Shown here piece by piece: positions 2,372 through 38,738 of a stretch of DNA of 64,000 nt (position 1 is its first letter; every line of letters begins with the position of its first letter). Source of the stretch: Ruminococcus sp. Marseille-P6503. GTDB lineage: Bacteria; Bacillota; Clostridia; Oscillospirales; Ruminococcaceae. Both the position numbers and the translations under genes were made by a program. The notes under the pieces are model-generated. The model saw nothing but the letters and a program-made list of their open reading frames with translations. It was not told where the DNA came from and made no database searches. The stretch lies in assembly GCF_900604945.1 (NCBI RefSeq), contig NZ_UWPB01000002.1, positions 744,001 through 808,000 on the forward strand, in the 5' to 3' direction.

Positions 2372-2443
2372 TATATGACCGGCGCCGCATAGCGCACATT
2401 CCAATTAATTTGCCCCCCATCCCACTTATAAATTACAGTTTGG

Positions 2444-2476
2444 GCCCGCTGCCGCGGAGAATTTCCGGCAGCGGGC
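2444..2476 (+). terminator. GC-rich stem-loop after amt
   Basis: Perfect 11-bp arms (2444-2454 and 2466-2476, GCCCGCTGCCG) enclose an 11-nt loop. There is no U-tract on either side, so factor-independent termination is uncertain. The rest of the 2372-2620 gap shows nothing codable. Confidence 0.45.
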
Positions 2477-2623
2477 TTCAGGCGTTGAATAAAATGCAAA
2501 CGGCGGAAAAAGTAGTCGGACGCCGTCTGAATATATTGTAACATATGGAATTATAAAGTCGTTCGCATACGTCGGGAAGCTTGCGTCAATAATTTATCCG
2601 TCGGCTGATAAAGGGAGTAAATG

Positions 2624-2664
2624 TTTGTGAAAAACTTGACAAAGCCCTGTATATAGGGTATAAT
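2624..2664 (+). promoter_or_regulatory. Consensus promoter of the aconitase operon with overlapping Rex-like palindrome
   Basis: TTGACA at 2636-2641, a 17-nt spacer and TATAAT at 2659-2664 form a perfect sigma-A promoter. An 18-bp palindrome at 2625-2642 (TTGTGAA-N4-TTGACAA) covers the -35. It matches 12 of 14 fixed positions of the clostridial Rex operator TTGTTAA-N4-TTAACAA. The spacer also holds CCCT-N6-AGGG (2645-2658). Redox repression of aconitase by Rex is inferred. Confidence 0.75.
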
Positions 2665-2698
2665 TACATTATATATTATTGAGAAGGGAATGTTTTGA

Positions 2699-4636
2699 AT
2701 GGGTTTGACACTTACAGAAAAAATCTTGAAAAATCATCTTGTTGACGGCGAATTTGTTAAGGGACAGGAAATCGGAATCAGAATCGACCAGACGCTGACT
2801 CAGGACGCTACCGGAACAATGGCATATTTGGAATTTGAGGCTATGGGTGTTCCGAGAGTAAAGACTGAGCGCTCTGTTGCTTATATCGACCACAACACGC
2901 TTCAGTCGGGCTTTGAAAATGCCGATGATCACCGTTTTATCGGCTCGGTAGCAAAAAAGCACGGCATTTATTTTTCCAGACCCGGAAACGGAATCTGCCA
3001 TCAGGTTCAGCTTGAAAGATTCGGCATTCCCGGAAAGACGCTTATCGGCTCTGACAGCCATACTCCTACCGGCGGCGGAATCGGAATGATAGCTATCGGC
3101 GCTGGCGGTCTTGACGTCGCGGTGGCAATGGGCGGCGGAGCATATTATATTACCTACCCTAAAATAGTTAAGGTGAATCTTACCGGAAAGCTTTCTCCGT
3201 GGGTTGCGGCAAAGGACGTTATTCTGGAGGTTCTCCGCAGACTGTCGGTAAAGGGCGGCGTAGGAAAGGTTATCGAGTATACCGGCGAGGGAGTCAGGAC
3301 GCTTTCGGTTCCGGAGCGCGCGACAATTACAAACATGGGGGCGGAGCTCGGAGCGACAACCTCTATTTTCCCGTCCGACGAAATTACCCGCGAGTTCCTG
3401 AAGGCGCAGGGCAGAGAGGACGTTTGGTGCGAGCTTAAGGCTGACGGCGACGCGGTTTACGACGAGATCGTTGATATTGACCTTTCGCAGATAGTTCCTA
3501 TGGCGGCTTGTCCTCATTCTCCCGACAACGTTAAGACCTGCGATGAGATAGGAAAGCTGAAGATAGATCAGGTTTGTATCGGCTCATGTACGAATTCCTC
3601 GTTTATGGATATGATGAAGGTCGCTTATATTTTAAAGGGAAAGACTGTTCACCCCGACGTATCACTTTCTATCGCTCCCGGTTCAAAGCAGGTGCTTAAT
3701 ATGCTGGCGCAGAACGGAGCCCTTGCCGATATGATAGACGCCGGAGCGAGAATACTGGAGTCAGCCTGCGGTCCCTGTATCGGAATGGGACAATCTCCTA
3801 ATTCAAAGGGCGTATCCCTGAGAACCTTTAACAGAAACTTTGAGGGACGTTCAGGCACAAAGGACGGACAGATATATCTGGTATCTCCCGAGCTTGCGGC
3901 GGTTTCGGCGCTGACCGGCTGCCTTACCGACCCGAGAACTCTGGGCGATATGCCTGAATTCAAGCTGCCCGAGCATTTTGTGATAAACGATAATATGATA
4001 GAGCCTCCCGCTCCCGTTGAGGAAATGGACAAGGTGGAGATTTTAAGAGGTCCGAACATCAAGCCGTTCCCGGAAACAGCTCCTCTTGACGAATCTATCG
4101 AATGTAAGGTATCGCTTAAAGTCGGCGACAATATAACTACAGACCATATCATGCCTGCGGGAGCTAAAATTCTTCCGCTCCGTTCAAATATTCCTGCAAT
4201 TTCCCAGCATTGCTTCACAGTGTGCGACGAGGAATTTCCAAGACGCGCAAAGAACATGGGCAAGTCGATCATTGTAGGCGGCTCCAACTACGGCCAGGGC
4301 TCGTCAAGAGAGCACGCGGCGCTTGCTCCTCTCTATCTCGGAATCAAGGCGGTGCTGGTAAAGAGCTTTGCGAGAATCCACAGAGCTAATCTTATCAACG
4401 CAGGTATTCTGCCGCTTACATTTGTAAACGAAGCTGATTACGACAAGATTTCACAGGGAGATGAAATCTTGCTTGCAGACGTAAGAAAGGCAATAGAGGA
4501 GGACAAGACTCAGCTTACCGTTGTAAACAAGACCACAGGCGCGGAAATCCCCGTTCTCTGCGAGCTTACAGGACGTACGAAGGATATTGTTCTTGCCGGA
4601 GGTTTGCTTGACTATACAAGAGAAAGCCTGAAATAA
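2699..4636 (+). CDS. acn: Aconitate hydratase (Aquifex-type, about 645 aa)
   Basis: Interconverts citrate and isocitrate through a [4Fe-4S] cluster. The cluster ligands are visible as Cys297 (GSCTNS) and Cys357/Cys360 (CGPCIG). Substrate-site motifs GSDSHTPTGGG (117-127) and, in the swivel domain, GGSNYGQGSSREHAAL are intact. The length fits the compact Aquifex-type aconitase rather than the 900-residue AcnA/AcnB. It heads an operon with a small membrane protein and icd, supplying isocitrate for 2-oxoglutarate; no citrate synthase is in view. The start ATG follows GAAGGGA. Cluster lability makes it oxygen-sensitive, as expected in an anaerobe. Confidence 0.93.
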   Translation: MGLTLTEKILKNHLVDGEFVKGQEIGIRIDQTLTQDATGTMAYLEFEAMGVPRVKTERSVAYIDHNTLQSGFENADDHRFIGSVAKKHGIYFSRPGNGICHQVQLERFGIPGKTLIGSDSHTPTGGGIGMIAIGAGGLDVAVAMGGGAYYITYPKIVKVNLTGKLSPWVAAKDVILEVLRRLSVKGGVGKVIEYTGEGVRTLSVPERATITNMGAELGATTSIFPSDEITREFLKAQGREDVWCELKADGDAVYDEIVDIDLSQIVPMAACPHSPDNVKTCDEIGKLKIDQVCIGSCTNSSFMDMMKVAYILKGKTVHPDVSLSIAPGSKQVLNMLAQNGALADMIDAGARILESACGPCIGMGQSPNSKGVSLRTFNRNFEGRSGTKDGQIYLVSPELAAVSALTGCLTDPRTLGDMPEFKLPEHFVINDNMIEPPAPVEEMDKVEILRGPNIKPFPETAPLDESIECKVSLKVGDNITTDHIMPAGAKILPLRSNIPAISQHCFTVCDEEFPRRAKNMGKSIIVGGSNYGQGSSREHAALAPLYLGIKAVLVKSFARIHRANLINAGILPLTFVNEADYDKISQGDEILLADVRKAIEEDKTQLTVVNKTTGAEIPVLCELTGRTKDIVLAGGLLDYTRESLK

Positions 4637-4655
4637 TATAGACAGGGGAATCGGC

Positions 4656-4832
4656 ATGATTGCGTCTGTACTGATATTAACGCTTATGCTGCTTATATCG
4701 GACAAGCTCCGCGTAAATCCGCTGAATCAAAAAAAGCTGAGCGTGAAAAAGCAGCTGCTCTTTATTCTGATTCTCGCTTTGCCCTATATCTTATATTTCG
4801 TTATTATGATGCTTTTTGCGTTAAGCTTTTAA
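4656..4832 (+). CDS. Small membrane protein (58 aa) between acn and icd
   Basis: A 58-codon frame begins with ATG at 4656 after an AGGGGAA ribosome-binding site and ends 17 nt before icd. It is predicted to have two membrane helices (residues 1-15 and about 34-57) joined by a basic linker containing [17 protein letters not shown]. Tight spacing on both sides means it is co-transcribed with two soluble TCA enzymes. I do not recognise the family. The hydrophobic-basic-hydrophobic pattern and the good SD argue that it is real. A transport or membrane-tethering role is possible but unsupported. Confidence 0.6.
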
Positions 4833-4849
4833 AACAGGAGGAAAGTAAA

Positions 4850-6061
4850 ATGGCTAAAATTCAAATGAAAACACCCCTCGTCGAGATGGACGGCGACGAG
4901 ATGACCAGAATTATCTGGCAGGAGATCAAGGATATTCTTATCCTTCCTTATGTGGACCTTAAGTCTGAATATTATGATCTTGGTCTTGTCCACAGAAATG
5001 AAACAGACGATCAGGTAACGGTCGATTCCGCAAACGCTACCAAAAAGTACGGCGTTGCGGTAAAGTGCGCTACTATTACTCCTAACGCTGCAAGAATGCC
5101 GGAGTACAACCTCAAGGAAATGTGGAAATCCCCTAACGGTACTATCAGAGCAATGCTGGACGGCACGGTTTTCAGAACTCCTATCCTTGTAAAGGGAATA
5201 ACTCCGTATATCCCTACATGGACTAAGCCTATAACCATTGCCCGTCACGCTTACGGCGACGTTTACAAAAACGTTGAAATGAAGTGCCCCGAAGGCTCTA
5301 AGGCTGAACTGGTATGTACGGATAAGGACGGAAACGAAACGAGAGAAACGATCTACAGCTTTGAGTGCGACGGAATTATTCAGGGTCAGCATAACAAATC
5401 CTCGTCAATAGCCTCCTTTGCGAGAGCCTGCTTTAACTTTGCCCTTGACACAAAGCAGGACGTATGGTTCGCTACAAAGGATACTATCTCCAAGAAGTAC
5501 GACCATACCTTTAAGGACATTTTCCAGGAAATTTACGATAATGAATATAAGGAGAAGTTTGAGGCCGCCGGAATCGAGTATTTCTATACCCTTATCGACG
5601 ACGCGGTTGCAAGGGTAGTGCGTTCTGAGGGCGGATATATCTGGGCGTGCAAGAACTATGACGGCGACGTTATGAGCGACATGGTGGCTACCGCTTACGG
5701 CTCGCTGGCAATGATGACCTCGGTTCTGGTATCTCCCGACGGCGTTTACGAGTACGAGGCTGCTCACGGAACGGTACAGCGTCATTATTACAAGCACCTG
5801 AAAGGCGAAGAAACCTCGACAAACTCGGTAGCGACACTGTTTGCATGGACAGGAGCCCTCAGAAAAAGAGGAGAGCTTGACGGGCTTGCTGAGCTTGTTA
5901 ATTTTGCTGACTGCCTTGAAAAGGCGACAATTAAAACCATTGAGGACGGAGTTATGACCGGAGATCTGTATCTGCTTTCCAAGCTTGAGAACAAGAAAAA
6001 GGTCAATACCGAGGACTTCCTCAGGGCTGTGGACGAAAGATTAAAGGCAATGCTCGGCTGA
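4850..6061 (+). CDS. icd: NADP-dependent isocitrate dehydrogenase (homodimeric, eukaryote-like subfamily)
   Basis: Oxidatively decarboxylates isocitrate to 2-oxoglutarate. The 403-residue protein has the isocitrate-binding [16 protein letters not shown] segment, RHAYGD, the metal-binding NYDGDVMSD, and [11 protein letters not shown], whose Arg-His pair is typical of NADP rather than NAD specificity. AGGAGG precedes the ATG by 7 nt. Encoded directly after aconitase, it completes the oxidative half-TCA route to 2-oxoglutarate, matching the glutamine synthetase and Amt-PII genes upstream. The NADPH it makes can support biosynthesis. No sign of truncation. Confidence 0.94.
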
Positions 6062-7099: not shown

Positions 7100-8188
7100 A
7101 TGAAATCAACAGCAAAACTTGATATTTCGCGTTTTGTTAATATTTCACCCAAATATATGTATTTGTTTGCATACATATGCTGTCTGCTCGTTCACGGGGT
7201 ATTTCTTTTTTACTTCAGATATATAGGCGTTACAGAGATGATGTACTTCAATTTTTTCAGCGTGGCGATGTATCTCTGTTTTTCTCTAATGCTTTTCCGG
7301 GTGAAAAATCTAACGCCAATGACTTGCATGGCTCTGCTTGAAATAACGATCCATTCCATAGCCGCAACGGTTTATGTAGGCTGGGGCTTCGGGTTTGCTA
7401 TGTTTCTGGTATGCGTTGTGCCTGTTCCGTTTTTTATAAACTTTAAGAGAAACATTACGCCTTATATCATAACTCCGTTGATCGTAGCTGCTTTTATGGG
7501 ACTGAGGGTGTATACTGCTGACGAGGCGAACGTAGTATATCATCTGAACGACGAAACGTCGCAGATAATACTTTATATGTTCAACAGCTTTTTCGCGTTT
7601 CTGATGATTATCGGTATATCGGGGATATATAAGGTTTCAAGGCAGATATCTCAGAGACAGCTCAAAACTAAGAACGAAACGCTCAGTCGGCTTGCCGCAA
7701 TTGACCCGCTTACTCAGCTTTTCAACAGACGGGCAATGATGGATTTTTTTAAGCAGATACAGAGAAGCGCCGAGGCTGTTCACAGCAGATATATAATCGC
7801 AATGGGGGATATTGATTATTTTAGGGAAGTAAACAACACTTACGGTCACTTCTGCGGAGACGTGGTTTTAAAACGTGTTTCGGCAGTGATGAGCGAGCTT
7901 GTTCCGGCAGAGGGCTATGTATGCAGATGGGGCGGAGAAGAGCTGCTGTTTGCAGTGCCGAATACCGATATCGAAGCGGGCACGGAAATTGCAGTGAAGA
8001 TATGTGAAAAGATAAGAAGCATGAAATTCTGCTGCGGCGAAAGCAGCTTCGGAGTTACGATCACGATCGGCGTCTGCGAATGCGGAGAGGATATTCCGTA
8101 TGAGGAGGGTCTGAAAATTGCCGACCGTTATTTGTATGACGGTAAAAAACGCGGCAGAGACTGCGTAATAAACGGCGATATTCAATAA
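7100..8188 (+). CDS. Membrane-anchored GGDEF diguanylate cyclase
   Basis: A 362-residue protein. The N-terminal half has about six hydrophobic segments. The C-terminal domain begins at DPLTQLFNRRAMMDFF and carries GDIDYFREVNNTYGH and the active-site signature GGEEL, a functional GGDEF variant. It should make cyclic di-GMP from two GTP. The usual RxxD product-inhibition site five residues upstream is absent (PAEG there). The ATG at 7100 is chosen because GAGGGA lies 8 nt upstream. An in-frame ATG at 7052 has no SD and sits only about 16 nt from the predicted transcription start. The membrane part probably senses a signal, but no named sensor domain is recognised. Confidence 0.88.
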   Translation: MKSTAKLDISRFVNISPKYMYLFAYICCLLVHGVFLFYFRYIGVTEMMYFNFFSVAMYLCFSLMLFRVKNLTPMTCMALLEITIHSIAATVYVGWGFGFAMFLVCVVPVPFFINFKRNITPYIITPLIVAAFMGLRVYTADEANVVYHLNDETSQIILYMFNSFFAFLMIIGISGIYKVSRQISQRQLKTKNETLSRLAAIDPLTQLFNRRAMMDFFKQIQRSAEAVHSRYIIAMGDIDYFREVNNTYGHFCGDVVLKRVSAVMSELVPAEGYVCRWGGEELLFAVPNTDIEAGTEIAVKICEKIRSMKFCCGESSFGVTITIGVCECGEDIPYEEGLKIADRYLYDGKKRGRDCVINGDIQ

Positions 8189-8359: not shown

Positions 8360-8392
8360 TTGTTGACTATTTAACAACAATTGTGATATAAT
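8360..8392 (+). promoter_or_regulatory. Promoter of the dynamin operon with overlapping Rex box
   Basis: TTGACT (8363-8368), an 18-nt spacer and TATAAT (8387-8392). The 18-bp palindrome at 8360-8377 (TTGTTGA-N4-TTAACAA) matches 13 of 14 fixed positions of the clostridial Rex operator and covers the -35. A leader of about 270 nt (about 8399-8669) follows before the first start codon. It contains several small hairpins, including CCCGG/CCGGG just upstream of the SD, but no riboswitch I can name. Confidence 0.75.
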
Positions 8393-8669
8393 ATTAAGGT
8401 TAAAAGCAGATTTTTCCTTGGGCTGTCAGGCTTCGGGAAAAGCGGAGAATCGCGTATCGTAAGGCGATCGGAAAAACGGCTTTTGCGATATGCATTAGGC
8501 TTGTGCGGATTTTGAAGAGAATGATTAAAAAGACAGTGATATTTGAGTATCGTATGAACAGTTAAAATGAGCTGACGGATAAGCGGACGGTCTGCCGTTA
8601 AAATAAAAAGAGAGATTCTGTTCTGATATTATTAACCCGGTATTTTATCCCGGGATTTGGAGGTCTGAA

Positions 8670-10721
8670 ATGGATAAGCAAATTGATTACGGAAGTTACG
8701 CCGGCTACCGTGACACCGTGCGGACTCTGACGGGAAATTTAAAGGAGCTGCTTCGGCTGAGCGAGGATATCTGCCTTGTGAATACCGCCAGGTCGATAAG
8801 GGAAACTATTGAAAAATCAGACGACGATCACTTTGAGGTCGCGATAGTGGGAGAGTTCAAGAGGGGAAAGTCTACTCTTATAAACGCTCTTCTCGGACAG
8901 GAGGTTCTGCCTGCCGACGTGCTTCCGGCAACGGCTACTCTTAACAGGGTTACATACAGCGAGGAGCCTTATGTACAGGTTGAGTACAAAAACGGTACCA
9001 GCGAGAGAGTGGATATTGACCAGCTGGAAAATTACGTTACCAAGCTTACCGCCGAAGCCGAGGAAAAAGCGGAAACCGTAAAAGAAGCCACGGTGTATTA
9101 CGATACCGATTTCTGCCGCAATAACGTGGATATAATTGACACTCCCGGCTTGAATGACGACGAGCAGATGACTAACGTCACCCTTTCAATACTTCCCAAG
9201 ATCGACGCCGCGGTGTTTGTGATCAGTGCAAATTCTCCGTTTTCGCAGTTTGAAAAGGACTTTCTTGAGAAAAAAATGCTTACTTCGGACGTGGGAAGAA
9301 TAATTTTTGTAGTCAACTGCTTCGGGACATTTTCTCAGGAGGACGAGAATAAAATAGTTGAAACCGTAAGAAGCCGAATTACAAAGTATGTAATGGATAA
9401 GGCTAAAAAGGTTATGGGAGAGGACAGCAGGGAATTTGCTGTTTATAAAAGAAAAATAGGAACTCCAAGAGTTATAGGTCTGTACGCAAAAAGAGCGCTT
9501 ACCGCCAAGACCATAGAGGATGAAAAGCTTCTGGAGGAAAGCAATTTCCCTGAATTTGAAAAGGCGCTTGAAACTATGCTTACCAAGGAAAGAGGAGTTA
9601 TTGCCCTTCAGATCCTTGCAAACAAGATAACAAATTCAGGAACGGAGATACTTCGTTCGGTAGTTATGCAGGAAAACGCTCTTATGATGGCAAACGACGA
9701 ATTTATGGAACGCTATGAGAGCGCGATAAACGAGATTGATGAGATTAGAAACAAGAAGCGTCAGGAATTTGTAAGGATAAACGACGCCGCGAATAAAGTG
9801 TTTTCAGATCTGCAGCCGGTGCTTGACAGCTACTGGACAAATATCGAGCAGGCGGCTATGGAGGTTATCGACGGATTTCAGATGTCCTCAGACGATTTCA
9901 AGAAGGATCAGCTTAAAATGGTTACTGCCAAGCTTACCGAAAAGATCAGGGAGAGCATTGAGGCAAGGGCGCAGCTTATCTGCGAGCAGATACAGAATTC
10001 CATTAATATAGCCATTAGCGTTGAAACAGAGCGTTTGCAGGGCTTTGAGGACGAATTCTTTGAATCGGTGGCCAGAATTCAGGAGATGTTTACGATTTCC
10101 GAAAGGGTCTCAAGAAACGGTAGCGGAATTGATAAAGGAATAGGCGCGGCTCTCGGCTCGTTCGGAGTAGGCGGGCTGTTCCTTGGCTTCCGTGAGGCGG
10201 GCTTCAAGGGGGCCTTGCTGGGCGGAGTAACCGGATTTGCAGGCTTTTATGCTACTTTCTATACAGCCATGTTCTTTACGGGAGTGCTTGGAATAACCGC
10301 CGCTCTTCCTGCTACCTTATGTCTTATGGCGATTGCAGGTTTGGCGGGAACGTTTTCTGCCAATTTCGCGGTGGATAAGATACTTGTCAAGGAGAGGATA
10401 GATAAGTATAAGTCAAACTTTAAAACTCAGGTCAGAAAACAATTCCATGAGCTGAAGCTGAACAACGACTTTACTGAAACCGTGCGCCGTCAGGTATTTT
10501 CAGCGTTCGAGGGATTGAAAACAAAGATCGAGAGCGAAACGGAGATAATTCTCCGCGATACTCAGGAGACTCTTGATAACTTAAACGATCTTAAAAATGA
10601 AAAGAGCAATATTTCCGAAAGGGAAATGGAACGTCTGCACGCTATCGCAGAAACCGCCAGCGCGATCGTTTCAGACGCCTATGCAGTCAGAAGAGTGCTT
10701 TCTGAGGCAATGGAAAATTAA
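8670..10721 (+). CDS. Bacterial dynamin-like GTPase, membrane-inserting (first of pair)
   Basis: A 683-residue large GTPase. It has P-loop GEFKRGKS (61-68), switch residues near PATAT (86-90), DTPG (157-160) and, at the base-recognition position, NCFG (216-219), which departs from the usual N/TKxD. Long helical stalk segments follow. At about 490-575 a glycine-rich hydrophobic stretch could form two or three membrane segments or a paddle. This is the architecture of bacterial dynamin-like proteins, which remodel or hold membranes and often work as unequal pairs. It heads an operon with an M48-like protein and a second dynamin. GGAGG lies just upstream of the ATG. Confidence 0.88.
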   Translation: MDKQIDYGSYAGYRDTVRTLTGNLKELLRLSEDICLVNTARSIRETIEKSDDDHFEVAIVGEFKRGKSTLINALLGQEVLPADVLPATATLNRVTYSEEPYVQVEYKNGTSERVDIDQLENYVTKLTAEAEEKAETVKEATVYYDTDFCRNNVDIIDTPGLNDDEQMTNVTLSILPKIDAAVFVISANSPFSQFEKDFLEKKMLTSDVGRIIFVVNCFGTFSQEDENKIVETVRSRITKYVMDKAKKVMGEDSREFAVYKRKIGTPRVIGLYAKRALTAKTIEDEKLLEESNFPEFEKALETMLTKERGVIALQILANKITNSGTEILRSVVMQENALMMANDEFMERYESAINEIDEIRNKKRQEFVRINDAANKVFSDLQPVLDSYWTNIEQAAMEVIDGFQMSSDDFKKDQLKMVTAKLTEKIRESIEARAQLICEQIQNSINIAISVETERLQGFEDEFFESVARIQEMFTISERVSRNGSGIDKGIGAALGSFGVGGLFLGFREAGFKGALLGGVTGFAGFYATFYTAMFFTGVLGITAALPATLCLMAIAGLAGTFSANFAVDKILVKERIDKYKSNFKTQVRKQFHELKLNNDFTETVRRQVFSAFEGLKTKIESETEIILRDTQETLDNLNDLKNEKSNISEREMERLHAIAETASAIVSDAYAVRRVLSEAMEN

Positions 10722-10774
10722 TTTCTGCGCTGCTGCCGGTTTTCCGGCACAGGAAAAATTAAGGAGGTACTCGA

Positions 10775-11752
10775 ATGAGCGATTCAATGGAATCCGTCAA
10801 TCCGCTTATGCAGATCGATACGGGATTTCGTTCATATCTTAACGCATATACGCGCTCCTTTCAGAATCATGTGGTGGACGGACAGCTTGACTATGCGTTC
10901 GACTCGGATTTTGCGGTAAGGCAGAAGATCACAGGGCTGACCGGCTGGAGCAAGCTTGCAAAGGCTGTAAATTCAGCGGACATTTCCGCGGAAGCAAAGC
11001 ATTTGTTTATGAAATGCAATCAGGCGGGGGCGCTGAAGTATCCCGAGCTGTATGATATTGTCAAAGTGTGTGCGGAAAGACTTGAGCTTAATTTGCCTAT
11101 AGTATTTGTAAGGGAAGATATAGATAAACCGCTGATTTATTCAGTCGCGAGCGATATAATCGAGCCGTGCATCGTCATGACCCAGAAGCTTCTGGAGCTG
11201 TGTACGGAGGAGGAGCTTCAGCTGCTTATCGGCTGCGAGGCGGGAAGGATACAGAACAATCATGCGGTCTACAATTGGGCGTTTACATATCTTAATTATA
11301 ACAGGAACGTGTATAAGCCCGCCGAGCGTTCGTATAAGCAGAGCGTAAGCAATCAGATCGTCTGTTCGCTTATCGAATGGGTGAAATACGCCGATATTAC
11401 CGCTGACAGAGCGGGGATCATCTGCATTGACAGACCGGGAAGATTTCTCGATATTTTCTGCGGACTATATAAAAAGGGATATATTGATTTTTACGGCAGA
11501 TCCGGAAAGGATCTGGACTTCGGCAAACTCAGCGGACTTCACGGCGACAATCATACGACCGCGGCAAGAAGCCTGAAATCCGACGGTTCGCTGTCGGAGC
11601 TTGAAAGGCGTCTGCTGGCGTCGGCTGAATTTTTGTCCTGTGATTCGCTGTTTGCGTGGAGAAGAGATATTGACAAGAGCGATATCCATACTATTTCCGG
11701 TCAGATATGCGACGTAAGAAGCTCTATAATTCTCGGAACGGGGGGGCAGTAG
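10775..11752 (+). CDS. M48-peptidase-like protein with degenerate zinc motif (probable pseudoprotease)
   Basis: 325 residues, no signal peptide or clear membrane segment. The middle resembles an M48 (HtpX-like) peptidase: IVMTQKLLELCTEEELQLLIGCEAGRI is followed by NNH, and further on YADITADRAG, where the family has a helix with HExxH-x-x-x-H and the ExxxDRAG motif with the third ligand. Here HExxH reads CEAGR (154-158): both zinc histidines are gone, the Glu is kept, and the DRAG element (about 211-214) is preserved. A catalytic role is therefore unlikely, and a binding or scaffold role is more plausible. It sits between two dynamin-like GTPases, 53 nt after one and 1 nt before the next. SD AAGGAGGT is strong. 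Family assignment is by motif only. Confidence 0.65.
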   Translation: MSDSMESVNPLMQIDTGFRSYLNAYTRSFQNHVVDGQLDYAFDSDFAVRQKITGLTGWSKLAKAVNSADISAEAKHLFMKCNQAGALKYPELYDIVKVCAERLELNLPIVFVREDIDKPLIYSVASDIIEPCIVMTQKLLELCTEEELQLLIGCEAGRIQNNHAVYNWAFTYLNYNRNVYKPAERSYKQSVSNQIVCSLIEWVKYADITADRAGIICIDRPGRFLDIFCGLYKKGYIDFYGRSGKDLDFGKLSGLHGDNHTTAARSLKSDGSLSELERRLLASAEFLSCDSLFAWRRDIDKSDIHTISGQICDVRSSIILGTGGQ

Positions 11753-11753
11753 T

Positions 11754-13523
11754 ATGGATGTTTACGATTACAGGGCTGCCGGAAGAGATATTGACGAAGT
11801 CCGTGAAAATATAGGCGGGCTTACTTCAGACCGGGGACTTGAGAAGATTCTCGGACGGGAATTTGCCGAAGAGCTGAGAGAATGGGAAAAAATAGTTGAA
11901 AAAAGATGCAGCGAGCCTTTTACGCTGGTTATTCTGGGAGAATTCAAAAGAGGAAAAAGTACGATAATAAACGCGCTGCTGGGCAAAGAGCTTGCGCCGT
12001 CAAACGTTTCTCCTGAAACCTATACGATAAATGAAATATCCTACGGCGATACTCCGTCTGTAGAGGCGGTTCTGGAGAACGGACAGAGGATACCGCTTAC
12101 GCTCGCGGATATAACGAGAGATCGGCTTGAAGTAAAAATGAAGCTGTTTCCGTCGAAGATATCCTATCTCGATATACGCGACAACGCTCCTATTTTAAAG
12201 GAGCTGAGGATAGTTGATACTCCGGGGCTTTCCGATCTTGACGATCTTGACAGGCAGGTAACGGAATATCTGGTCAATGCGGACGCTATTATGTACGCGG
12301 CGTCATGTCTGCTGCCGTTTTCGGAAACCGAGCTGATGTTTCTGGGAAGGCATATACAGCCGCAGAGATTCGGAATGCTTTATGTGCTGGTCAATATGAC
12401 GGACGCTTTGAACTGCCAGAATGACGTCGATAAAATAATGAACCGTTTTTCAAGGCTTGCGGAGCAGATCGTGCCTAACGCTTTTGTTTACGGCATAAGC
12501 GCCGCCGATGAGCTTAGAAGAAAGCTTGGCAGGGAACGGCTTCCCGATAAGGGAACGAGAGAGTTTTATGAAACTCAGTTTTTCAAGTTCGAGCTTTCCC
12601 TGAAGCGGGACATTATAATGCAGAAGGACGTTATAAGGACCAGACGCGTCCTGACTATGCTTGAGCAGGTCGTGAATGAAACCAGAGCAAAGATCCATAT
12701 GTTTGCCGATATGGCGGAAATGGATCAGAAAAAGCTGGAGGAAAAGACGCGCGACTTTGACGAGCAGTGTCTGCAGCTTGCTTCGGCGCTTGAGGAATGC
12801 AAGCCGGCGCTTCATCTGAGCGTTATTGAAATGCAGCAGGAAGCGGAGCAGTGGATGTACGAATTTTTTGCAGGACTGAGGATGAGTATGCTGGAGTGCC
12901 GCAAAAAGGACGAAAACGGCGAGGATATTTATTCCTCTGAGGATATTGAAAAGTATTTTTATTCGTTTCTTATGGAAAAGGTGGGCGAGGCATACCGCAC
13001 CTGCATAGAGTGCCACCGCGCCAGAATAAACGATATTGTGGAAAAAATGAGCCGCGATCTTGCCAAAAAGCTGGGGCTTCAGGATCTTTCGTCGGTAACG
13101 CAGGCAGCTTCCGCCGACCGCCTTATGATGTCGCTTAACAAAAACGTTACCCGTTCTGTAATGAGCGTAAAGCTGTTCGGAACAAGCGAAACGTTTCCTC
13201 CCGCGGCGCTGTCGGTGTTCAGCATAATCCTTAAAAAGAAAAGACAGACTGATATAATCGACATTGCTCTTGAAAATTACGACGATATAAGGATCAATAT
13301 AGTCAAGGATATAAAAAACGTATATCAGGATCTGGAGGTAAAGGCGTGTCAGCGTCTTGACGGTATATATCAGTATCAGGCTGAGGTCGGAAAGGAAGCG
13401 CTGAATCAGGCGAAGGAGATGATAGGAAGCCTGGACGTCAGAACGGTAGGCGACGCTCTGGTCAAGGCTGATGAACTGCTTGAAAAGTCTGCCGCGCTGC
13501 TTTCAAAATACGATCTGGAATAG
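11754..13523 (+). CDS. Bacterial dynamin-like GTPase (second of pair)
   Basis: A 589-residue GTPase. It has P-loop GEFKRGKS (62-69), DTPG (155-158) and NMTD (214-217), a near-canonical base-recognition motif. A long helical region follows, with strong coiled-coil character around 320-350. A short hydrophobic patch near 463-475 (PPAALSVFSIIL) may be a membrane-binding paddle; there is no full membrane span. It thus looks like the peripheral partner of the membrane-inserting dynamin two genes upstream. The start codon lies one base after the previous stop, so the genes are translationally coupled. Confidence 0.87.
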   Translation: MDVYDYRAAGRDIDEVRENIGGLTSDRGLEKILGREFAEELREWEKIVEKRCSEPFTLVILGEFKRGKSTIINALLGKELAPSNVSPETYTINEISYGDTPSVEAVLENGQRIPLTLADITRDRLEVKMKLFPSKISYLDIRDNAPILKELRIVDTPGLSDLDDLDRQVTEYLVNADAIMYAASCLLPFSETELMFLGRHIQPQRFGMLYVLVNMTDALNCQNDVDKIMNRFSRLAEQIVPNAFVYGISAADELRRKLGRERLPDKGTREFYETQFFKFELSLKRDIIMQKDVIRTRRVLTMLEQVVNETRAKIHMFADMAEMDQKKLEEKTRDFDEQCLQLASALEECKPALHLSVIEMQQEAEQWMYEFFAGLRMSMLECRKKDENGEDIYSSEDIEKYFYSFLMEKVGEAYRTCIECHRARINDIVEKMSRDLAKKLGLQDLSSVTQAASADRLMMSLNKNVTRSVMSVKLFGTSETFPPAALSVFSIILKKKRQTDIIDIALENYDDIRINIVKDIKNVYQDLEVKACQRLDGIYQYQAEVGKEALNQAKEMIGSLDVRTVGDALVKADELLEKSAALLSKYDLE

Positions 13524-13661
13524 CAGTCGAAACATCTAAGAAAAATAATATTTTGTTAATAAATGATTTGAGTGCAGGGTTTTATATTAAAAAATCCTGC
13601 ATTGTTTTTGTTGATTTTTGCTAAAATTAAATGTGAAAGTTTGGTGAAAAGTATCATTGAA

Positions 13662-36851: not shown

Positions 36852-38738
36852 TCACACCATAAGTCCGCAGATAAGATTTGCAAATTCAACAGGATCCTCT
36901 ACGCTCAGCCCCTCAATAAGACGAGCCTGAGAGTAGAGTAGCTTGGTATAATCCTTAAGCTTATCTCTGTCGCTCGCATAAAGATCTTTAAGCTTTGCAA
37001 AAACGGGGTGAGAGGAGTTAAGCTCAAGACATTTTTCCGCCTTGACTTCCTTACCCTCGTTCTGAGGCATGGAGTTGAGGACCTTTTCCATTTCTATAGT
37101 AATGCTGCCCTCGGCGGACAGGCACACCGGATGGCTTTTAAGCTTGGAGGAAAGACGGACGTCCTTTACCTTGCCCTCAAGCGCGTCGGTCATGAATTTG
37201 AACATATCCTGATTTTCCTCGGCAGTCTTTTTCGTTTCTTCCTTTTCTTCTTCAGTTTCAAGATCAAGATCGCCGTCAGAGATAGATTTGAACTTTTTGC
37301 CCTTATATTCCATCATGACCTTGATAGCAAATTCATCAACATCCTGAGTAAAGTAGAGCACCTCAAAGCCCTTGTCCTTTACTCTTTCCAGCTGCGGCAG
37401 CATTTCGATTCTGGCAATGCTTTCTCCGCAGGCGTAATAAATCTCCTCCTGGTCTTCCTTCATTCTTGAAACGTACTCTTCAAGAGTTACGTTCTTGCCG
37501 TCAAAGGAGGACGGCCACATAAGAAGATCCTGCAAAGTATCCTTGCTTGCGCCGTAGGACTGATAAATTCCGAACTTGAACTGAAGTCCGAAGGTTTCAT
37601 AGAATTTAAGATACTTTTCGCGGTCGTTTTTAAGCATTTTTGCAAGCTCGTTTTTAATGGATTTTTCTACGTTTTTGGCAATTATCTTAAGCTGTCTGTC
37701 GTGCTGCAAAAGCTCTCTCGATATGTTGAGCGACAGATCCTCGGAATCCACAAGTCCCTTTACAAAGCTGAAATAATCCGGCAGCAGATCCGCGCATTTT
37801 TCCATGATCAAAACTCCGCTGGAATAAAGCTGAAGTCCTTTTTCATAGTCCTTAGAATAATAGTCGAAGGGCGCCTTTGAAGGAATGTAAAGCAGCGCGT
37901 CGAAAGTGGCGATACCTTCGTTTTTGCTGTGAATGTGAGCAAGGGGAGGCATATAATCCATAAACTTTTCAGTATAGAAGTTGTTGTAATCCTCATCTTT
38001 CAGCTCGTTTTTGTTTTTCTTCCAGATGGGAGTCATGCTGTTGAGCGTTTCATTAACAATGTGCTTTTCAGGCTCGGCATTCTCGTCATCAGGATAATGG
38101 GTGTGCTCTACGTCCATTTTAATAGGAAAGCGGATATAATCGGAATATTTCTTTACAAGCGACTGGATCTGATATTGATCTAAATACTTGTCGTAGTTCT
38201 CGTCGTCGGTGTTGTCCTTCATTTTAAGAACTATTTCAGTGCCGAAGCCGTCCTTGCCGCATTCCTCTACTGTGTAGCCGTCAACGCCGTTAGACTGCCA
38301 CTTCCATGCTTTTTCCGAGCCGTAGGGCTTTGTATACACCGTAACCTCTTTGGCAACCATAAAGGTTGAATAAAAGCCTACGCCGAACTGACCGATTATG
38401 TCAACGTCGTCGCCAAGCTCGTTATCCTTTTTAAAATTGAAAGAGCCGCTGTTTGCGATAGTTCCTAGGTTGTTTTCCAGCTCCTCTTCGGTCATTCCTA
38501 TTCCGTTATCGGAAATTGTAAAAGTGCGGTTTTCCTTGTCCGCTTTAAGCTGAATGGCAAAATCGTCCTTATTCATGCCGACGCTGGTATCTGTCAGCGA
38601 TTTATAATAAAGCTTGTCGATAGCGTCGCTGGCGTTGGAGATAAGCTCTCTCAGAAAGATTTCCTTGTGAGTATAGATTGAATTGATCATCATGTCCAGC
38701 AAACGCTTGGATTCTGCTTTGAACTGTTTTGTTTCCAT
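36852..38738 (-). CDS. htpG: Molecular chaperone HtpG (Hsp90)
   Basis: 628 residues. The N-terminal GHKL ATPase shows [30 protein letters not shown] and GQFGVGFYS. The middle domain carries the catalytic-loop Arg in NISRELLQ. The C-terminal dimerisation domain is complete. It refolds client proteins using ATP. A perfect CIRCE operator lies between promoter and start codon, so HrcA repression and heat induction are expected. Confidence 0.96.

Follow-up and report, generated by a model that had tools for sequence, protein, structure and literature searches.

A predicted M48-derived pseudoprotease encoded between two dynamin-like GTPases in Ruminococcus and related bacteria

Introduction

Bacterial dynamins have been described as paired in operons (PMC6104087, PMC4159319). 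Cj-DLP1/2 of Campylobacter jejuni are presented as a heteromeric tethering or remodelling pair, and the extra gene of their operon as that of a putative HcpA-like beta-lactamase (PMC6104087). In mitochondria, the M48 domain of OMA1 is reported to cleave the dynamin OPA1 (PMC8027119), and Eleos has been called a dynamins-like defence system (PMC11811056). Here we analyze a 64,000-nucleotide (nt) stretch of the genome of Ruminococcus sp. Marseille-P6503 (contig NZ_UWPB01000002.1, positions 744,001 to 808,000; hereafter the window), in which the gene of an M48-like protein, M, stands between those of two dynamin-like GTPases, A and B.

Two unequal dynamins per operon, belonging to the BDLP/mitofusin branch by fold and sequence, are what this locus shares with Cj-DLP1/2, LeoA/B/C, BDLP1/2 and IniA/C; unlike them, it has an M48-derived third subunit between the dynamin genes. 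M has the M48 core of HtpX, Ste24, BepA and OMA1 by profile and by fold, whereas both of its zinc-binding histidines are lost, the third ligand is changed, and no strong transmembrane segment is present. The coupling of an M48 protein with a dynamin recalls mitochondrial OMA1-OPA1, but M has no zinc site, shows no membrane anchor and belongs to a bacterial operon; the likeness is treated as one of analogy only. A search of the literature on bacterial dynamins with M48 proteins or pseudoproteases (titles and abstracts, mostly of open-access papers) found no description of such an operon, in line with the initial annotation of this DNA, which knew of no described system with this gene order.

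Results

The three genes follow each other on the forward strand at window positions 8670-13523, in the order A-M-B, with gaps of 53 nt (A-M) and 1 nt (M-B). Pfam assigns the outer proteins to Dynamin_N (expectation value, E, 1.7e-33 for A and 7.5e-20 for B) and the middle one to Peptidase_M48.

8670..10721, + strand: dynamin A, 683 amino acids (aa), BDLP/mitofusin type (Dynamin_N match; match to BDLP, 2j68)
10775..11752, + strand: M, predicted M48-like pseudoprotease, 325 aa (Pfam, structural model, Foldseek, family alignment)
11754..13523, + strand: dynamin B, 589 aa, lacking any strong hydrophobic segment (Dynamin_N match; model matches)

When 84,980 species genomes were scanned with a sequence pattern, 117 related stretches came up; 80 of them, representing 79 loci, were retained. 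By record title they belong to Ruminococcus, Oscillospiraceae or Clostridia/Clostridiales bacteria, among them Ruminococcus bicirculans 80/3 (L072) and R. albus (L076, L078), and the unit occurs in many Ruminococcus-like bacteria of gut and rumen. The order A-M-B on one strand is found in 75 of the 79 loci, and the remaining four (L059, L085, L093 and L116) reach contig ends; at L085, A lies in two overlapping frames. The neighbourhood search thus shows that the trio is conserved well beyond the genome of the window. A survey of the family gave the same picture: 52 of 297 genomes matched, and 47 were of trio type after removal of five with a solitary, longer M48 (G074, G883, G973, G1002 and G1059). 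Flanks were read for 35 of these 47, plus G000, G006, G013 and G050 separately, and A and B flank M in 34 of the 35. The lone exception is G057 (locus L039), the upstream part of which is doubtful. In a set of 150 relatives, M accompanies A (E 1e-60) in each of the 18 family members that encode A; G057 encodes M and B but lacks A. Within the genus, 11 of 16 genomes carry the trio; of the five others, G003 and G011 yield nothing better than E 6.7e-7 for Dynamin_N. In the genome of the window, A and B are the sole Dynamin_N matches better than E 1e-15, the five further matches being short and at E 1.4e-5 or worse.

The genes around the trio vary. The most frequent neighbouring cluster is found, in differing positions, in 13 of the 79 loci; eight loci have a transporter cluster (of polyamine type, judged by eye) upstream. 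The divergence of the three proteins is correlated: over 17 genomes, pairwise correlations are 0.981 (A-B), 0.976 (M-B) and 0.939 (A-M), against 0.855-0.901 with rpoB. The good agreement with rpoB argues for largely vertical descent, and partial correlations given rpoB are 0.755-0.937, or 0.678-0.882 when G066 is left out. A-M-B is a real gene unit, conserved in order and strand.

M has no relative in viral contigs and no match in plasmids. An unverified 8.8-kb contig from human faeces labelled as a bacteriophage (L235; MT836781.1, 1-8795) carries the whole trio, with CECGR in M, next to integrase-like, excisionase-like and PemK/MazF-like genes (names by eye). It is the single phage record matching A, and we take it for a mislabelled bacterial piece. 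At L123, a 189-aa gene preceded by short repeats (7140-7871) is inserted between M and B; the insert resembles a type III ToxN/AbiQ-like toxin-antitoxin cassette.

The feature that sets M apart from active M48 peptidases is its zinc site. In these enzymes, the third zinc ligand is the Glu of an ExxxD element.

11234..11248, + strand: CEAGR instead of HExxH, residues 154-158 of M (family alignment)
11393..11416, + strand: DITADRAG, residues 207-214 of M, with Asp207 where the third zinc ligand would be (family alignment)

The initial annotation had read HExxH as changed to CEAGR with the downstream DRAG kept, and residues 154-158 and 211-214 of M bear this out. HExxH is retained in none of the 79 loci, and the first His is replaced in all of them (position 154: C 37, S 27, A 7, R 4, and G, I, F and Y once each). 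The second His position, 158, is R in 66, H in seven, K in five and C in one, amounting to 71 with R or K; the third ligand position, 207, is D in 75 and C, N, Y or T in one each. Other residues persist, with Glu155 kept in 79/79 loci, His163 in 78/79 and Cys217 invariant across 80 rows; position 211 carries N or S in 11 of the 79 loci. Two genomes, G867 and G1007, have lost even Glu155. A salt bridge between Arg/Lys158 and Asp207 replacing the zinc was also considered, as Asp207 is found in 71/71 rows with R or K and in 4/8 others (Fisher 4.7e-5). It is not relied on, because the rows are related, G948 combines Arg158 with Asn207, and several further His158 rows keep Asp207.

The ratio of nonsynonymous to synonymous substitution rates (dN/dS) of M is 0.03-0.11 in the 12 closest pairs, with a median of 0.16 and a maximum of 0.49 over 299 pairs; the medians for A and B are 0.10 and 0.16. 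By this measure, M is under purifying selection.

M scores above the curated Pfam cut-off for Peptidase_M48 (24.7 bits against 20.3; E 2.3e-5). Its AlphaFold2 model has a mean predicted local distance difference test score (pLDDT) of 87.3 and is confident save for residues 1-28. Foldseek placed Ste24p on top (probability 0.99, but E only 6.7e-3 and a template modelling (TM) score of 0.30) and also found ZMPSTE24; no match reached E 0.001 or better. Against the HtpX domain (3cqb_B), the model gave a TM score of 0.70 by target length, with a root-mean-square deviation of 2.6 over 91 columns. At the sequence level, a profile built from 22 relatives of M picks up Ste24p at E 0.002 and HtpX at E 0.0045. 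An M48 core is thus supported and a whole-length match is not. Structure prediction, proposed with the initial annotation as a check on its M48-like assignment, did not return a different fold. The hydropathy of M peaks at 1.07, with no strong transmembrane segment.

The part of M outside the confident model is conserved.

10799..10858, + strand: N-terminal segment of M, NPLMQIDTGFRSYLNAYTRS, residues 9-28, putative docking peptide (pLDDT, entropy)

This segment carries the motif NPLLxIDTxF and is modelled at pLDDT below 50. Its mean entropy (0.76 bits) is close to that of the best folded stretch, residues 39-57 (0.73), and below that of the active-site stretch, residues 131-165 (1.27). Invariant positions of M are enriched in residues 1-51 (11 of 27, p 0.0009). 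The segment reads NPLLKIDTSFQSYL in L267-L269, where the protease core has decayed further, and G867 and G1007 keep NPLLKIDTSFQSYL despite the loss of Glu155. It is present in the intact-site relative L038 described below and absent from seven short-headed intact M48s (L155, L156, L159, L160, L161, L164 and L166); the N-termini of L157 and L168 differ from it. We infer that residues 9-28 may be a peptide that docks on a dynamin.

Two members of the same family, G066 (L038) and G057 (L039), have an intact zinc site, with HECGH and EVTCDRAG. L038, from a near-complete genome, has all three genes in the order A-M-B; its M scores E 6.2e-20 (72.2 bits) against Pfam M48, and its dynamins score 8.9e-30 and 6.8e-20 against Dynamin_N. 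Because this relative with a zinc site shares the gene order, the chemistry would have been lost after the operon was formed. L038 is the one complete intact trio, as M of L039 is truncated beside a glycosidase-like frame: at L039 166-2621 it lacks its N-terminal third and abuts that frame, either as a contig chimera or as a real fusion. The region upstream of the L038 trio (2434-5796) encodes one more dynamin, the third of this locus (Dynamin_N E 1.9e-24), along with small proteins that carry zinc-ribbon-like cysteines.

In a quick tree of 93 M sequences, about which the tool warned of long branches, a branch separates the intact rows from the others; the first His changed once and the second at least three times. 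L038 and L039 are sisters (support 93, not starred) and are joined to the 80 rows without HExxH at 99. M of the window is accordingly read as a pseudoprotease by descent, predicted to be non-catalytic, which kept its place in the operon after losing its chemistry.

Beyond the family, other families of the phylum sample contributed 12 M48s of this subtype, either motif-intact or as broken copies. Four of them directly adjoin one or two dynamins (G574, G738, G813 and G526), and in G198 (L168) an intact M48 and two dynamins have one gene between them. Adjacency in four of the eight genomes that have both is estimated to lie far above what scatter over about 2,500 genes, with 1-4 dynamins per genome, would give. 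The same scan also returned seven HtpX- or M56-like loci (L167, L169-L174), none of them near a dynamin. Solitary M48s with an intact HE(C/V)GH, some 460-800 aa long and without a nearby dynamin (L272-L277, L040), occur in some members of the same family as the trio, and two of these genomes also carry a trio-type M.

Both GTPases retain the G1 and G3 motifs of dynamins.

8850..8876, + strand: G1 P-loop GEFKRGKST of A, residues 61-69 (columns 97-99% conserved, 74 rows)
9135..9158, + strand: G3 IDTPGLND of A, residues 156-163 (every column 99%, 74 rows)
10128..10379, + strand: glycine-rich hydrophobic region of A, about residues 487-570, likely membrane paddle (hydropathy)
11937..11963, + strand: G1 P-loop GEFKRGKST of B, residues 62-70 (columns 100% except E63, 80 rows)

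A matches BDLP (2j68) by sequence at E 4.2e-28 over residues 53-663, so that neck and trunk are covered. The model of B (mean pLDDT 73.7; predicted TM score 0.52) matches BDLP at E 1.6e-19, and its closest structures are BDLP, IniA, the Cj-DLP pair of C. jejuni and mitofusins. By sequence and model, A and B are dynamins of the BDLP/mitofusin branch with G1, G3 and a predicted helical neck and trunk. The initial annotation had described two dynamin-like GTPases with P-loops and switch motifs, one of them with a membrane-inserting region and the other peripheral. The first point holds, as both match Dynamin_N and G1 and G3 are conserved (A, 74 rows; B, 80). The hydropathy profiles agree with the predicted difference in membrane insertion, with a maximum (19-residue window) of 2.0 at residue 539 in A against 1.21, within the G domain, and 1.15 in B. 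By analogy with BDLP and LeoA, the hydrophobic region of A is likely a membrane paddle. The two proteins also differ at G4, which is NM(T/I)D in 80/80 rows of B; in A, the place expected for a G4 motif with Asp (residues 216-219) reads NCFG in 73 of 74 rows. A of L038 has TGID at this place, as opposed to the NCFG of window-type A. A shift in the nucleotide specificity of A may have accompanied the decay of the protease site.

Sequence signals around the genes were also considered.

8363..8392, + strand: sigma-70-like promoter (TTGACT-18-TATAAT, 11/12, TG before -10; consensus match only)
13571..13603, + strand: terminator-like stem of 13 pairs with a T tract (consensus match only)

Scans gave 12 promoters, compared with 8.1 in shuffled sequence, and 5 terminators, compared with 5.6. 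With counts this close to those of the shuffles, transcription of A-M-B from one promoter is only plausible; of the one-promoter layout first proposed, the gaps of 53 and 1 nt are as described and the single promoter keeps this lesser standing. A leader of about 270 nt (window 8393-8669) separates the promoter-like site from dynamin A. The window, this leader included, has no Rfam match at gathering thresholds. Elsewhere, the window encodes a 627-aa fusion of an ammonium transporter with a P-II regulatory domain (488-2371; Pfam) and an Hsp90 family protein (36852-38738; Pfam).

Discussion

We see an even chance that the three genes make up a heteromeric dynamin device, with M as a non-catalytic binding subunit whose ancestor was a protease working with dynamins. 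Dynamin A would insert into the membrane through its hydrophobic tip and pair with dynamin B, and GTP-driven changes of the pair might tether, bend or repair membrane. The ancestral M would have been an M48 metalloprotease acting with dynamins, its site still intact in L038 and L039. Catalysis was probably lost once, in a Ruminococcus-like lineage, with M retained as a binding subunit. The N-terminal segment NPLLxIDTxF could dock on a dynamin, and the emptied cleft may still hold the former substrate without cutting it, or else close the complex. The role of M as a non-catalytic adaptor for the GTPases, already proposed in the initial annotation, is one that we infer; purifying selection, correlated divergence and the conserved N-terminal segment all fit it.

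Several observations weigh against this reading. Residues 1-38 alone are not clearly enriched in invariant positions (6 of 27, p 0.08), and the low pLDDT of the N-terminal segment may stem from a shallow alignment of 22 rows. Eight of the 12 M48s of the wider set are not beside dynamins, even though four of these eight (G697, G550, G618 and G473) have dynamins elsewhere in the genome; the other four have no dynamin better than E 4.9e-6. G143 (L236) has an A-like dynamin (43%) in a row of three dynamins with no M48, so A-type dynamins can manage without M. In addition, the trio is missing from 5 of the 16 genomes of the genus, which makes the device dispensable.

The same facts would also fit if M were no structural subunit but a decoy or inhibitor, binding the dynamins or a cellular M48 such as HtpX and shielding the dynamins from proteolysis. 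Pseudoproteases commonly act as regulators, and such decoy logic would be iRhom-like. By itself, however, shielding leaves unexplained both the stoichiometry implied by one operon and a divergence correlated with that of both dynamins, and we regard it as doubtful. An enzyme of another chemistry, with a site rearranged around Glu155, His163, Asp207, Asp211 and a Cys, appears improbable. The near-invariance of Glu155, His163 and Asp207 (75/79), and the invariant Cys217, would suit it, but position 154 takes eight different residues (C, S, A, R, G, I, F, Y), Asp211 gives way to N or S in 11 of 79 loci, and Glu155 is gone from G867 and G1007. Moreover, the same residues are conserved in the intact relatives, where no new role is needed.

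A role in phage defence, as a dynamin/Eleos-type system with one additional subunit, is scarcely more probable than a new chemistry. Like Eleos, the trio has a pair of dynamin-like GTPases, and the PADLOC models LeoA and LeoBC match A (E 5.7e-21 and 1.2e-17), with LeoBC also matching B (1.1e-15); its distribution in the genus is patchy (11/16), and one copy lies on a contig with an integrase (L235). Unlike Eleos, it has the M subunit, and the PADLOC models do not discriminate among dynamins: they matched 8/8 other dynamins tried, so that a match means only "dynamin", and these matches were dropped as a sign of defence after that control. Furthermore, the recurrent flanking genes among the variable ones look like transport and housekeeping genes (judged from sequence starts, no defence-gene scan having been made), and M has no match in plasmids or viral contigs. 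Least probable of all, in our judgement, is that M is a stand-alone, chaperone-like quality-control factor merely co-transcribed with the dynamins. M48 proteins such as BepA have been credited with chaperone-like roles, but the order and strand of the trio persist while its flanks change, and the divergence of its members is correlated beyond rpoB.

The reading of M as a binding subunit of a dynamin device can be carried further, to a broader proposal that we hold to be rather unlikely. Bacteria would have protease-controlled dynamins of their own, in which an intact M48 (as in L038, or beside other Firmicutes-like pairs) cuts a dynamin as a switch, an independent counterpart of OMA1-OPA1. Such cutting would be open to the intact relatives L038 and L039 only, since M of the window lacks the zinc site. 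M of the Ruminococcus lineage would then switch by binding alone, gripping a dynamin through its cleft and its N-terminal peptide.

Paired bacterial dynamins are known but their control is poorly known, and M is a concrete candidate for a regulator. Its relatives offer a natural before-and-after series: an intact site, one His left, none, and no catalytic Glu. With OMA1-OPA1 as the comparison, M48 control of bacterial dynamins becomes directly testable in common gut and rumen bacteria. If the reading is true, a former protease would now serve a membrane machine as a binding partner.

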